Assembly (NCBI GenBank): GCA_026706025.1
Contig: JAPOZO010000093.1
Span: 1-64,000, forward strand
Direction: 5' to 3'
Length of the DNA: 64,000 nucleotides
Source of the DNA: Candidatus Poribacteria bacterium
GTDB taxonomy: Bacteria > Poribacteria > WGA-4E > WGA-3G
A model generated the notes under the pieces. The model searched no databases. It had not been told where the DNA came from and saw nothing but the letters and a program-made list of their open reading frames with translations. Positions within the stretch are counted from its first letter, which is position 1; each line of letters opens with the position of its first letter. Below, in pieces: positions 51,736 through 57,211 of this stretch. The position numbers were made by a program, and so were the translations under genes.

Positions 51736-52752
51736 ATGATAAAAGAACAAATTGACGATATACGTAACAGGTTAAAAAATAAAGAATACCCAAATGAGCA
51801 GGCGGTTCGCCAAGGAATTGTGGATCCGTTACTCAGAAACTTGGGTTGGCCACTTGAAGAAACTCAAATTGCTTATCCTGAATACACTGTAGGTTCTGGG
51901 AAAGTAGACTACGCCCTACTGGATCCGCAATCGAAGAAACCTCGTGTCTTCATTGAAGCCAAGCAAGTTGGGAACATTGAAGGGGCAGAGGAACAATTGT
52001 TTGGATATGATGCTCGCATAAGAGTACCAATCGCGGTCCTCACCGATGGTCAGATATGGCGTTTCTTTCACCCAACGGGAGAAGGAACATGGGAGGAACG
52101 TAAGATCCGCGAGTTAGATTTCATCACAGGAGACAGCGCGGAAAGTGCCGAGTGCCTTAGCAAATACTTGAATTACGAGTCAATTTGTTCAGATAAGGCG
52201 GTTGATGCAATCAGAGATGACTATAATAACCGTGTCCGACAAAAAAAGATTCAGAGTGGTTTACCAGAAGCATGGCGCGCCTTGGTAAAGGAAGCAGACA
52301 AGGGTCTGATCAAAGTTGTGGTGGAAAAAACTGAAAACGTGTGTGGACATCGTCCCGACGATGAACAAGTGATCGCCTTTTTAAGAAAGGAAGAGTTACC
52401 CTTAGTACAACCCCTCGCTCCAGATCCTCGTGAGAAACAACCGGTCCAACCTAACGCTCCAACACCACGCAAGAAATCAACACGTTTGCGCGTTACAATG
52501 CCTAATGGAGAAGTGGTTGAACGTCGCCATGCAAAAGCCACATTCATTGAGACACTTGAAAAGTTAGGAATAGAAAAGGTAATGAGCGTTCACCCATCTA
52601 CCGTACGAACCGATCCTCCAAAATATTTTAGAGTTGAATATGGACAGTATTACATACATCATTATGCTGATACTCGTGGTAAAAAACGTGCTCTTGAGGA
52701 AATTGCTCAACTTCTAGGTGTCCAAATCACAGTAGAAATAGTTGAGAAATAG
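51736..52752 (+). CDS. HsdR_N-type PD-(D/E)xK protein with a TRLRVTMP C-terminal domain
   Basis: 338 residues. Residues 5-135 match the type I restriction HsdR N-terminal fold: NEQAVRQGIVDPLLRNLGW, then GKVDYALLD (Asp58), PRVFIEAKQVG (Glu74-x-Lys76, the catalytic PD-(D/E)xK residues) and a Gln87 in EEQLFGYDA, then VLTDGQIWRFF. No helicase follows. A Pro-rich linker (222-247) joins a 90-residue domain (249-338, TRLRVTMPNGEVVERRHAK to VEIVEK) that recurs alone as the protein at 53336. So the gene encodes a nuclease-type head with a partner module, likely in defence or DNA metabolism. Function unproven. Confidence 0.75.
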   Translation: MIKEQIDDIRNRLKNKEYPNEQAVRQGIVDPLLRNLGWPLEETQIAYPEYTVGSGKVDYALLDPQSKKPRVFIEAKQVGNIEGAEEQLFGYDARIRVPIAVLTDGQIWRFFHPTGEGTWEERKIRELDFITGDSAESAECLSKYLNYESICSDKAVDAIRDDYNNRVRQKKIQSGLPEAWRALVKEADKGLIKVVVEKTENVCGHRPDDEQVIAFLRKEELPLVQPLAPDPREKQPVQPNAPTPRKKSTRLRVTMPNGEVVERRHAKATFIETLEKLGIEKVMSVHPSTVRTDPPKYFRVEYGQYYIHHYADTRGKKRALEEIAQLLGVQITVEIVEK

Positions 52753-53335
52753 TGAAAATCGATCTCACTTTCCAATAGACCTGCTGTTGTGTCTGTCCGT
52801 TATCACCCTATTGTGAAAATCTTTTGACAAATCTTTCAATCCAAACCGGTAAAGACAAATATGTATTAAAATAAAACGCAGTTAGTAGTTTGGGGGATGG
52901 TTAAATTAGATTTCACGTTATTACTGCCGTTAGTTGTTGGTATGTATTGTAGCATATCAGAAATGTTTAAGAAAAAAAACGCGAGACCGAGGTAGGTGTC
53001 GCAAAACCCCGTGAGACAGAGTAGGGTGTCGCTGGTTGTTTTTTATACCTCAAGATTAGTTGATCTAACGTAATTGTATTCGTATGTATTGGATAATCTC
53101 GATCAGAAAAGGGGAAGGCTTGTACTGCCTACCGGGTGAAGAAATGACTTGAAAAAGGCTTTGGAAATCCGCTGAAATACTGTTCTTGCTTGGGTGTTTC
53201 TTAAGCCAAAACACCAACATTTGTTAGTAGCAACTTGGGTTAAAATAGTTAAAACTGATAAACCTCTCGCAAGGTAAGTAACACTTTCGCTCACTAGCAT
53301 AGGTTTACTTGTCTACAGATTGTCAATGAGGAACA
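52753..53335. other. Intergenic region between the two TRLRVTMP genes
   Basis: 583 bases between converging genes. Contains GTAGGTGTCGC-like and GTAGGGTGTCGC words near 52993-53032 and AGTAGCAACTTGGGTTA at 53225-53241, which recurs at 58183-58199. No gene or clear terminator. Confidence 0.5.
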
Positions 53336-53641
53336 CTATTTTGGAATAATCTCTACTTTCATCGTTGAAATACCAAGACGCTCGGCAATCCTCTCAAGGA
53401 GTTCCTTTTTGCGTTCGTTTCGCCAATCACGTGATATGTACCACTCCCCTCGCTTGCGATAATTTCGGCTACTGTCAGATAACTGAAATCGCGAGATAAG
53501 CATATTCTCGTGGTCTACACTTAAGACGCGCTCGGGACCAAGTGTAAAAATAACCTCTTCTACAGTATCCGCTGCTATGGGACATTCAATTACCTCTCCA
53601 CCGGGCATCGTCACTCGAAGTCGCGTGTGTGGGTTATTCAT
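53336..53641 (-). CDS. Stand-alone TRLRVTMP-domain protein
   Basis: 101 residues. It is one copy of the domain at the end of the 51736 product: shared TRLRVTMP-x-GEV-x-E, an A-x2-T-x2-E helix, LG-x-E-x-V-x-SV, YI, KK-x2-LE-x-IA-x2-LG, VEI. ATG is placed 9 bases after GGAG; it overlaps the AlkB-like stop by 8 bases. I recall similar C-terminal stretches on other restriction-like or uncharacterised bacterial proteins, but cannot name a family. Likely a small DNA- or protein-binding module that works with the fused form next door. Confidence 0.72.
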   Translation of the reverse strand: MNNPHTRLRVTMPGGEVIECPIAADTVEEVIFTLGPERVLSVDHENMLISRFQLSDSSRNYRKRGEWYISRDWRNERKKELLERIAERLGISTMKVEIIPK

Positions 53642-54296
53642 AATAACTGTCTCCTATAATTACTTTCCTAAATGTTAGTGATACCCGTCGTTCCCTACCA
53701 TGCCTCTCACCTTCCCATTCGTCCCATCCCCTTGCTGGAATACTGTGTAACCACTGATACCTCGCTTCCCCTTCCATGACAATAAGACTTCTCGGTTCGA
53801 GCCAGACTGGGATACGCTTTGCTTTATCTAACTTATTTGTGAAATTCATAACACAATTGGATCCCAAGCTTAAAGAAACAATGGTATCCTTGAAACACGG
53901 TTCACAATCAATATGCGCTGAAATCCCTTGCCCAGGCAGATATTCATTGACAATCACCTGATCCGCGACTTCTGGCATGTACTTATCCCAATACAGTTCC
54001 TTGCTCAATTTTTCCAACCATCCGGGCAACTCACCGATGTGCATATCATAATTTACCTTCCGTGCCCTGTAGTCATACTTAAAGCCGTAATGCTGGACGC
54101 GTCGCTTAATGTCGTCAAGCCATAGTTGTTCGTCAACGTGGGCTAATAACTTATCATGTCTCTCTGCTGTGATATAGTTTTTTATACACCGCAACCCCGG
54201 TATCTCCATCGATATCTCTTTTTTTTCACTGGGTTGTGGTTGAGGGGCTTGCATATCCCGATCAAACAATTCTAATTGTACTGCTCGTTCTGCCAT
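53634..54296 (-). CDS. AlkB-type 2-oxoglutarate/Fe(II) oxygenase
   Basis: 220 residues from the ATG at 54296 (AAGGAG 7 bases ahead; a TTG two codons earlier is possible). Iron ligands His128 and Asp130 in GISAHID and His184 in WLHSIP, and the 2-oxoglutarate-binding Arg in RRVSLTFRK are present, with the substrate-loop region RVQHYGFKYDYRARK. The layout is AlkB/ALKBH-like and oxidatively demethylates alkylated DNA or RNA bases, or RNA-type substrates in the ALKBH8 branch. Second gene of the methyltransferase operon: 14-20 bases after the upstream gene and 8 overlapping with the next. Confidence 0.87.
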   Translation of the reverse strand: MAERAVQLELFDRDMQAPQPQPSEKKEISMEIPGLRCIKNYITAERHDKLLAHVDEQLWLDDIKRRVQHYGFKYDYRARKVNYDMHIGELPGWLEKLSKELYWDKYMPEVADQVIVNEYLPGQGISAHIDCEPCFKDTIVSLSLGSNCVMNFTNKLDKAKRIPVWLEPRSLIVMEGEARYQWLHSIPARGWDEWEGERHGRERRVSLTFRKVIIGDSYYE

Positions 54297-54316
54297 GGTC
54301 AATCTCCTTTGAGGTG

Positions 54317-55234
54317 TTACCGGTTATAAAAATAATCGTAGGACACATCATAAGGGTGCAGCGTTCCTTGCATTAACCGCTTATATTTTACACGCATGGT
54401 TGCCGTGTCATTTTGACCCATAAAAGTAATATGGCGAAAAGCGTTAATAATCCTATTTTTGAGTTCCCTCCAATTTCTATCACCGCCGCTGATATTCTGA
54501 TACATCATGGCAATTTTATAGTCGAGGTTCGCTTGAACAATATTGAGGAGCGCGTTGATTAACGCATTGATATTTCCTCGGAATGTCATAGAAGCAAGCA
54601 CGTAACTAAAGTTAAATAGTATCAGCGTATCTTCAGGATTACCTCTTTCAATACTGTTCAAATACGCTGGCAAGTTATTGAAGTTACGTCCAAGGTGAAA
54701 ATTTTTGTAAAAAGGCTCATCAGAATTGCCAAAGGGGCCCGCAGTGTTTATTTCCGCTGCCTTATTAAGCATGTGTTCCGAAATATCAACACCTATATAA
54801 GTGATATTGCACTGTCCTGCTACAGTCCAAAACGCAATACCTGAAGTTAATGGTCCACAACCAAAGTCGATAAAGACTACGTTCTCACTTTCGATTACGT
54901 GTCTGTGCCCTCTATAAAAATGATAAGAACTATAGAGGTGCATAGGCATATAAAAAACACCATTGAGTAACACCTTATGTTCTGGTGTATAATCCTTACC
55001 GCGCCATGATGATGGGGCATCGAAATCTGTCGAACCTCGATTCAGAACACTTATCCTTAGCCCGTTTATATAATCTGAATTGCTGTTGTAATCTTCAAAT
55101 TTATTCGCTTCCTCTGGAAGTGATTCTCTAAATGGTGTTATTACCGTATTCTCAAATAAACTGTATAGACTATCGCTGGGTTCATAGCAATTGTAACCTG
55201 AATTGTCCGTACCAGTGTAGTGAATATATTGCAA
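54317..55234 (-). CDS. Class I SAM-dependent methyltransferase-like protein
   Basis: 305 residues with a TTG start: AAAGGAGT is 7 bases ahead and no ATG fits. Rossmann signature VVFIDFGCGPLTSG (119-132) and YIGVDISEHML (146-156) bind SAM; an LILFNFSYVLASM block near 205-217 matches the motif IV/V area. The catalytic target is not a known DNA methylase NPPY motif, so small-molecule, protein or RNA methylation are as likely. First gene of the operon with the AlkB-like oxygenase; an odd pairing since one may make and the other remove a methyl group. It carries a near-perfect promoter. Confidence 0.75.
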   Translation of the reverse strand: MQYIHYTGTDNSGYNCYEPSDSLYSLFENTVITPFRESLPEEANKFEDYNSNSDYINGLRISVLNRGSTDFDAPSSWRGKDYTPEHKVLLNGVFYMPMHLYSSYHFYRGHRHVIESENVVFIDFGCGPLTSGIAFWTVAGQCNITYIGVDISEHMLNKAAEINTAGPFGNSDEPFYKNFHLGRNFNNLPAYLNSIERGNPEDTLILFNFSYVLASMTFRGNINALINALLNIVQANLDYKIAMMYQNISGGDRNWRELKNRIINAFRHITFMGQNDTATMRVKYKRLMQGTLHPYDVSYDYFYNR

Positions 55235-55257
55235 TTCAAAACTCCTTTGATAAAAGC

Positions 55258-55286
55258 ATTATACCACAGACACATAAGTGTGTCAA
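55258..55286 (-). promoter_or_regulatory. Consensus sigma-70 promoter of the methyltransferase-AlkB operon
   Basis: On the minus strand TTGACA (55281-55286) and TATAAT (55258-55263) with a 17-base spacer: both hexamers fully match the sigma-70 consensus. It sits 24 bases ahead of the TTG at 55234. Confidence 0.75.
55269..55284. promoter_or_regulatory. Operator-like palindrome in the promoter spacer
   Basis: GACACA-TAAG-TGTGTC, a 16-base palindrome with 6-base arms, overlaps the -35 element and most of the spacer. A repressor bound here would block the promoter. Confidence 0.45.
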
Positions 55287-57032
55287 CGAAGTATGATTGT
55301 CAGTGTCAGGGCGTTCGCTGCGCTTCCCGTCCCTAGTAACGAGTGGGGCCCCTGTCGGCAGTTAGCCTTTTGTCGCTGGCATTATATCTTTCACATTCAA
55401 ACGTAAGACGCGTCGCGACCGAATTGACGGTGTTTCGTTCTCCTGTGGTTTCGATCAAGGGTTAAATCTAAACTTTCACCGAACTGTATATTAAAGACAA
55501 TTTTTTTATCCCCTTTTCGTGCATAAAATGAAAAAAATGTGAAAAAAAGTGAATTTTATTGGTAAATCCGAAAATATGTGGTTGTCATGACGGCTACACT
55601 CCCGAAAATCCCTAAATCCTATAAATCATGGTTCAGACAATTATCATAATTGCTTCAAAACACGCGCCCGTCTCTGATAATCCCCTTCTCCGCAAAGCGC
55701 GGCAGGATGCGGTGTTTCTGGCTGATATGCGCCGGTTTTGCTGACTCGCTATAAGAGCAGTGCAGCCAGACCTACATCTCATTTCGTGTGAGAGCCTCTT
55801 CTTGTACAATGACGGCAAACCGCTGCAGCTTCTGAGTTGCTATGGGTGACTTCCCGACGCAATGAAGGTAGACTCAGATAGAATCTCTTGTCAGCTTCGT
55901 CCGGATGGTCACGCGGACGAAGACAAGTATCTTCAAGACGAAATGCTAATTGCTAATAGACATTAAGCAAGTTTCAATATTAAATTTGCACATTTCCCAT
56001 CAATGTCGGGCTACGGGGGTGCCTGCGGAAAAATCGAAAAATTGATACTTTATTATTTAATATTGCTTAATGATTTAACCGTTTTTACAATGCGGCTAAT
56101 CCGCAATAATTGTCTTTCATGTAATGTGAAACAAAAATAGAGGCTTCATATTACTGTAACGCGTATGTTAGGACGAAAGGTTGCATAAAATAGAAATTAG
56201 ACATGATAGTGGGTGAATTGTGTGTCCTTATTCATATTTTTGCTTAAAATGGCAGAAATGAGGACAACTCGCAAATGATACCGCTAAAAGACAACAAAAC
56301 AACGTGAAATGTATCCTAAGCGTTAATTCGCATAATATGTTCTTAACGTGAGTTTGATAAAAGCATATTGTAGCGTAAACTTCCGAGTTTGCGCATATAC
56401 CACACAAACTGGATGAAGATTAAGAAAATAGATCGGTAACAAAACGGGCAATAATGCACTTCGCATGAATCAACGGTATGAATGCCTTATGGGCATTCCC
56501 CGGGGTGAGTACACCGCAGAATTGCCCTACTACAAACAGATGGGTTCGTAGTAGTCAGTAGAAAGAATGCAAGTGGCGTTTTGTTCTCCTACAGGGTCAT
56601 TCAGTTTTAAATAAATTATCGGATTGTCTCAAATTTTGAATCCTCTTTTTTAAGTCCTGTGCGGTTGCAAACCACACCATAGTGTCAATTTAGGGATTTT
56701 TCGTGCCATTCTCGGCAGAGTAAGTCTGAACTGTGATTTCTGTGATTTTTCTGATTTTTCTGATAAGATCTCTGATAGAAAATAAGATGCTGATTGTGGG
56801 GTTGAAGTTTCTACAAAGATGGCGTTCCTGGGAAACTGCTGAGCCGTCAGGACTCGGTTTTCAGTTTTCAGTTGCTTGTGATGGGTTTTCTTATCATGAG
56901 TATCATAGCAATCAGAGAAATCACAGTTCAGAAATTAAAAGTGTAAAGCGTTAGGAGACCGACCGTCTCGGTCTGGATGCCGAGGGTGTTTTTGCGTGTC
57001 GAGAGGGTTATTTTTCTAAAATTGACACCTAT

Positions 57033-57054
57033 GGTTCGGTTGGGAAACCGAACC
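57033..57054. repeat. Hairpin repeat, GGTnCGGTT family
   Basis: Third member: exact 9-base arms around GGGA, then TACCGG. The preceding 30 bases (57006-57033, GTTATTTTTCTAAAATTGACACCTATGG-like) also match the DNA at 21819-21848. Confidence 0.75.
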
Positions 57055-57211
57055 TACCGGGTCTGGGTCTGAGACAGTTATTTTTTCCAAATCAGAGCTA
57101 TTGAATTTTTGATTTCTCTTTGACTTCAGAGACCTCTATATGTTACACTTTTGAAGGTTTCTATGATGAATGGAATTGGTTTTTATCTGGTTTATGAAAA
57201 GGAGAAATAAT

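Follow-up and report, generated by a model that had tools for sequence, protein, structure and literature searches.

A putative SeqA-like domain common to an HsdR_N nuclease and a methyltransferase–AlkB cassette in Candidatus Poribacteria

SeqA reads DNA methylation in E. coli. Its contacts with GATC are made by residues R116, T117, R118, N150 and N152 (PMC6225831). Eukaryotic ALKBH8 is a tRNA hydroxylase in which an AlkB core is coupled to a SAM methyltransferase. It has bacterial counterparts, and Zdzalik et al report that their physiological substrate is unidentified (PMC4051686). These authors lean to RNA modification for the canonical bacterial ALKBH8s; the Agrobacterium protein does not modify tRNA-Gly(UCC), its loss left tRNA-Gly(UCC) unchanged, and bacterial ALKBH8 proteins repair DNA in vitro with a preference for etheno adducts (PMC4051686). 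The HsdR subunit of type I restriction enzymes carries an N-terminal nuclease (PF04313), and a methyltransferase is represented in PADLOC by the C3a159 model. Here, we describe a locus whose four genes resemble each of these in part.

Candidatus Poribacteria are sponge-associated bacteria, and the relatives of the genome analysed here (G000) among public records are named Poribacteria. In the window, by which we mean the whole 64,000-nucleotide stretch of DNA that was analysed, all four ORFs reported in a preliminary description were found where it had placed them. A methyltransferase–AlkB–standalone TRL cassette (55234–53336, minus strand) lies tail to tail with an HsdR_N–TRL gene, TRL being the domain that the two have in common:

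51736..52752, plus strand: HsdR_N–TRL protein, 338 aa, with a PD-(D/E)xK nuclease head, a linker and a C-terminal TRL
52477..52749, plus strand: TRL (SeqA-like) domain within the nuclease
53336..53641, minus strand: standalone TRL protein of 101 aa, encoded at the end of the converging cassette
53650..53655, minus strand: AGGAGA, Shine-Dalgarno-like, 8 nt ahead of the standalone TRL ATG
53634..54302, minus strand: ALKBH8-type AlkB of 222 aa, a 2OG-Fe(II) oxygenase with the catalytic HxD...H and arginines in place
54317..55234, minus strand: SAM-dependent methyltransferase of 305 aa with the motif FIDFGCGPLTSG, from a family resembling PADLOC C3a159

The protein at 51736 had been described as a nuclease-type HsdR_N protein, and this holds: it matches HSDR_N (PF04313) over the cut-off (E 2e-6), and the nuclease residues D58, E74-x-K76 and Q87-x3-Y91 do not vary among the 17 TRL nucleases aligned. 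It shares the PD-(D/E)xK core and the QxxxY motif with the HsdR nuclease of type I restriction enzymes. Unlike these enzymes, however, the 338-aa protein contains no helicase domain, its neighbours in the window include no HsdM or HsdS ORF, and it ends in a TRL domain. Nor does the locus hold the full complement of any known PADLOC defence system, the matches being weak and to single component models.

TRL spans ~95 residues at the C-terminus of the nuclease and is a real, undescribed domain that is worth naming. The two copies in the window are 42–43% identical and match each other with an E-value of ~1e-8 in a search within the genome, so that the sharing is not due to chance; those of the nuclease and the cassette are the only copies found in this genome. 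The earlier claim of a novel domain common to both proteins is thereby borne out, as TRL has no confident match in Pfam, NCBIfam, PHROGs or PADLOC. A PDB profile search returned a chance-level match to BTF3 alone, a search of a viral fold library gave nothing significant, and searches of an open-licence literature library found no earlier account of TRL or of the methyltransferase–AlkB pair. Among the 146 genomes drawn as relatives, 48 encode a TRL protein, nearly always with TRL as the C-terminal end of a longer polypeptide (280–460 aa in most cases); one TRL in G066 sits on an unrelated N-terminus without a Pfam match, and the protein at L131 contains two TRLs. Elsewhere, viral contigs, phages and plasmids yielded TRL on one Parabacteroides plasmid only, and 296 Bacteroidota genomes gave one match.

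What is the likely origin of TRL? We built an AlphaFold2 model from eight sequences (pLDDT 88.7, pTM 0.81), and among the 50 PDB matches listed by Foldseek the top TM was for 1lrr, a structure of SeqA with hemimethylated DNA (TMq 0.50, rmsd 3.5), while the SeqA C-domain in 3sk7 gave a TM of 0.47. SeqA also has the highest Foldseek probability among the matches listed (0.44), yet with an E-value of 1.3, and no PDB match to the model is significant by E-value; on structure alone, the assignment of TRL to the C-terminal DNA-binding fold of SeqA (PF03925) is borderline. Profile comparison agrees with this assignment. Using hhalign, 39 TRL domains align with five SeqA sequences over 70 columns (probability 83%, E 8.7e-6, an E-value for a single comparison that was picked after the fold match was known), with a score of 34.7 vs at most 19.3 over 400 column shuffles and a probability of 1% for the reversed alignment. 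The Pfam SeqA model matches the TRL part of L130 below its cut-off (E 0.19). The aligned core takes in the SeqA stretches G-R-T-R-V and Y-W-V-I-T-N-T-N-T-G-R-K. Both SeqA and TRL have a T-x-x-x-T...K loop between the last core strand and a helix, where loops of some TRLs, e.g. YYIMTNTDTKTKK, align with YWVITNTNTGRK of SeqA; the loop in AlkB-linked TRLs (SRDWRN) has diverged. Of the GATC-contacting residues, R118 alone is widely kept and the others, including R116, N150 and N152, are mostly absent, and because of this we call TRL SeqA-like rather than SeqA. Also unlike SeqA, TRL has added edge strands, is fused to enzymes and lacks the N-terminal oligomerization domain, the sequence ahead of TRL being HsdR_N, AlkB or nothing. 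Taken together, TRL is likely to be a distant homologue of SeqA. The SAM and SAM-AMP lyases, which had the top Foldseek E-values, were ruled out as relatives (TM ≤0.31, rmsd >15).

The surroundings of the TRL nucleases recall the partnership of Dam and SeqA in that adenine methyltransferases are among their neighbours. We counted ORFs of at least 200 aa around 43 Poribacterial TRL loci for DNA METHYLTRANSFERASES near TRL. Within 500 bp, 8 of 55 such ORFs encode DNA methyltransferases, whereas at distances above 2 kb 2 of 157 do (Fisher p 4e-4). In every case, the neighbouring DNA methyltransferase shares the strand of the nuclease. The families represented are D12/Dam-like, N6_N4 and EcoRI-type, of which the D12/Dam-like enzyme is one orthologous gene across six genomes (88–93% identical), so that these six loci belong to one lineage and are not independent; most TRL nucleases have no DNA methyltransferase neighbour. 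G010 and G035, which carry the nearest kin of the window nuclease outside G003 (clade support 99), encode an N6_N4 methyltransferase 37–39 bp downstream of HsdR_N–TRL. Both Bacteroidota TRL loci have restriction–modification settings as well, the TRL protein adjoining type III Mod/Res genes in L211 and lying amid SNF2, Eco57I, TIR and AAA genes in L033. In G066 (L265 13420–18078), one strand carries the genes for two distinct TRL proteins together with those for an EcoRI-type adenine methyltransferase and a GmrSD_N–HNH protein.

The other two cassette proteins had been described as an AlkB-type oxygenase and a methyltransferase, and both descriptions are correct. The oxygenase matches 2OG-FeII_Oxy_2 (E 1.5e-24), its residues H130, D132 and H186 are invariant across 46 sequences, and its best PDB match is ALKBH8 (6e-28; E. 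coli AlkB scores 3.5e-5). Similar to ALKBH8, it has the HxD...H iron site, the 2OG arginine and an RRVxHxG lid, and it is coupled to a SAM methyltransferase; it differs in having no RRM or zinc finger, with TRL in place of the RRM in this clade, and in that its methyltransferase precedes AlkB and belongs to a separate family. That methyltransferase gives a weak Methyltransf_31 match and a predicted Rossmann methyltransferase fold (pLDDT 94.7). It is of the same family as PADLOC C3a159, to which a cyanobacterial member scores 451 bits and the window protein 51 bits. In contrast to C3a159 as modelled, the family is far broader than CRISPR loci, and nothing in PADLOC matches its AlkB partner.

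The methyltransferase family is carried by 33 of the 38 genomes of the window's genus and extends to cyanobacteria, Bacteroidota, Latescibacterota, Planctomycetes, Chloroflexi and Gammaproteobacteria. The preliminary description had asked whether AlkB and methyltransferase genes co-occur, and they do so strongly: of 21 loci outside the Poribacteria, 16 have AlkB as the adjacent downstream gene on the same strand, and the two proteins diverge together (distance matrices r 0.82, n=16, permutation p 2e-4). At L100 4544–6139 (531 aa) and L101 7997–9898 (633 aa), the two are a single polypeptide. Methyltransferase and AlkB form a writer/oxygenase pair that is conserved in its own right, and pairs without TRL are the rule. 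The family is found in defence-type contexts in some genomes, including Cmr type III-B CRISPR, a reverse transcriptase gene, DISARM DrmA, HerA/DNA methyltransferase/NurA and an SNF2/HmaA-type helicase. A purely defensive module was nonetheless rejected as a general rule, since the pair occupies a housekeeping site near moaA/sufC/D-cysteine desulfhydrase-type genes (named by sequence reading) in many Poribacteria. Neither AlkB nor the methyltransferase was found in viral contigs. In Picosynechococcus, a plasmid cassette encodes a PNK-like kinase+WYL protein, the methyltransferase and AlkB (L134 4738–8405, L135 4731–8405, L136 2738–6405); on pAQ6 it is close to Cmr type III-B CRISPR, and on pAQ5 it adjoins a reverse transcriptase gene. 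In Bacteroidota, the methyltransferase forms the C-terminal part of proteins of ~1450 aa that also contain an SF1 helicase, and a Dna2/Cas4-like GR[LM]D...ExKSG nuclease motif is kept in eight of eight such fusions (L164 6326–11397, L165, L176, L166, L199, L202, L203 and L205); this Dna2-like nuclease–helicase is related to Mokosh MkoA. Downstream lies AlkB in three of the eight and a DUF1848 gene in L166, and some Bacteroidota have the helicase–methyltransferase without an ALKBH8-type AlkB.

How did TRL reach this pair? In G003, G019, G024 and G029, single ORFs of 321–328 aa encode AlkB with TRL as an in-frame C-terminal extension, whereas the window has one nucleotide more at the AlkB/TRL junction, with AGGAGA where the fused sister genomes have GACGAC or GGCGAC. 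A quick, midpoint-rooted tree built on few columns groups the AlkB-linked TRLs with the solo ones in a single clade (99) inside the nuclease TRLs, and the domain thus probably moved from a nuclease to the cassette. The window copy falls outside the four fused copies, and its start, MNNPHTRLRVTM, is identical to that of the solo TRL in L008; the standalone form may therefore be ancestral rather than a broken fusion. The preliminary description had also pointed to the neighbours of TRL proteins for an association, and the outcome is divided: AlkB–TRL copies adjoin defence-type genes in three other genomes (HerA/DNA methyltransferase/NurA in two, SNF2/HmaA-type helicase in one), but the methyltransferase–AlkB neighbour is missing at most of the ~50 TRL loci examined. 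The HsdR_N gene stands tail to tail with the cassette in the window and at the orthologous site in G003, which is one ancestral event. In G068, from another family, an HsdR_N–TRL gene (nuclease part 26% identical) precedes an ORF judged by eye to be GIY-YIG-like and a methyltransferase ORF truncated to 150 aa; this adjacency is independent of that in the window and G003.

We favour an account in which two modules share a DNA-reading domain, and in full we hold it tentatively, at close to an even chance. TRL would be a divergent version of the SeqA fold, able to bind DNA and to sense whether its bases are modified. Joined to the HsdR_N nuclease, it would make a small methylation-sensing endonuclease, which some relatives encode next to a DNA methyltransferase of its own that acts on adenine (or N4). 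In the cassette, methyltransferase and AlkB may work in series on one nucleic-acid base, by analogy with the methyltransferase and AlkB domains of eukaryotic ALKBH8, which methylate first and hydroxylate second. Within this Poribacterial clade, TRL would have been added to the oxygenase, as a downstream gene or a C-terminal fusion, which could bring the oxygenase to DNA as its target. A defence role may come with this. Several points weigh against the account: the Foldseek comparison by itself lacks significance, most GATC contacts of SeqA are absent from TRL, most TRL nucleases have no DNA methyltransferase beside them, pairs lacking TRL prevail and some occupy housekeeping sites, the methyltransferase model is closest to an RNA-associated enzyme, and some Bacteroidota do without the ALKBH8-type AlkB.

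Alternatively, methyltransferase and AlkB could jointly modify RNA (tRNA or rRNA) as the bacterial equivalent of eukaryotic ALKBH8, with TRL as a general nucleic-acid-binding tail and with defence neighbours that merely share islands or that rely on the pair to keep host RNA protected or repaired under attack. We consider this somewhat unlikely, while several observations speak for it. AlkB is of the ALKBH8 type, down to the stretch RRVQHYG that corresponds to RRVKHFG of ALKBH8, and RNA modification is the view to which Zdzalik et al lean (PMC4051686). The best match of the methyltransferase model is RNA-associated METTL17 (E 1e-9, TMq 0.52–0.55), followed by METTL6, with the tRNA m1A58 methyltransferase and MnmM among the matches listed, yet past METTL17 Rossmann methyltransferases score alike. 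The PNK-like kinase/WYL gene ahead of the pair in Picosynechococcus fits RNA, as does the resemblance of the Bacteroidota fusion partner to the Mokosh helicase MkoA, although that partner also has the Dna2/Cas4-like nuclease motif. Further against an RNA target, the AlkB-linked TRL is itself SeqA-like and SeqA binds DNA, and the unchanged tRNA-Gly(UCC) upon loss of Agrobacterium ALKBH8 also counts against the RNA reading.

The preliminary description had read nuclease, methyltransferase and AlkB as one self/non-self system, in which methyltransferase/AlkB(–TRL) would write or edit a host DNA mark and HsdR_N–TRL would cut unmarked or wrongly marked DNA. The shared domain, the intact nuclease motifs and the methyltransferase–AlkB co-occurrence underlying that reading are confirmed; their union in one system is not. 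In its favour, TRL is common to both parts, the tail-to-tail layout is preserved in G003, a separate HsdR_N–TRL lies beside a methyltransferase in G068, and the nuclease, methyltransferase and AlkB theme recurs through fusion in Bacteroidota. However, these adjacencies amount to one ancestral event plus G068 with its truncated ORF, G024 has AlkB–TRL and no HsdR_N–TRL was found there, the pair is absent from most HsdR_N–TRL loci, and in G010 and G035 the nuclease has a DNA N6/N4 methyltransferase at 37–39 bp instead. The single-system claim, which we regard as improbable, thus exceeds the evidence, and the two-module account is preferred. A base-hypermodification system, in which methyltransferase and ALKBH8-type oxygenase would write a two-step DNA mark, the SeqA-like reader would guide them and the reader-bearing nuclease would police the mark, is similarly a long shot. 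Alkylation-damage repair, with AlkB repairing DNA or RNA, TRL only a tether and the methyltransferase an incidental operon partner, is very unlikely: in vitro repair by bacterial ALKBH8 agrees with it, but the methyltransferase is conserved, co-diverges and is sometimes fused to AlkB, and plain repair needs no such partner.

For bacterial ALKBH8-type enzymes, the pairing provides a lead on what they act on, as the methyltransferase partner, conserved in several phyla and sometimes fused, points to the probable maker of the AlkB substrate. A SeqA-like domain on nucleases would, if true, represent a new class of methylation-reader restriction protein. Other Poribacteria show tandem diverged AlkB paralogues around one methyltransferase (L094, L095, L097 and L110) and shortened AlkB ORFs (e.g. 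L117 5444–5662). In the window, the ~1.9 kb adjoining the cassette (55235–57169) holds one small ORF (73 aa) and may be decayed island sequence.
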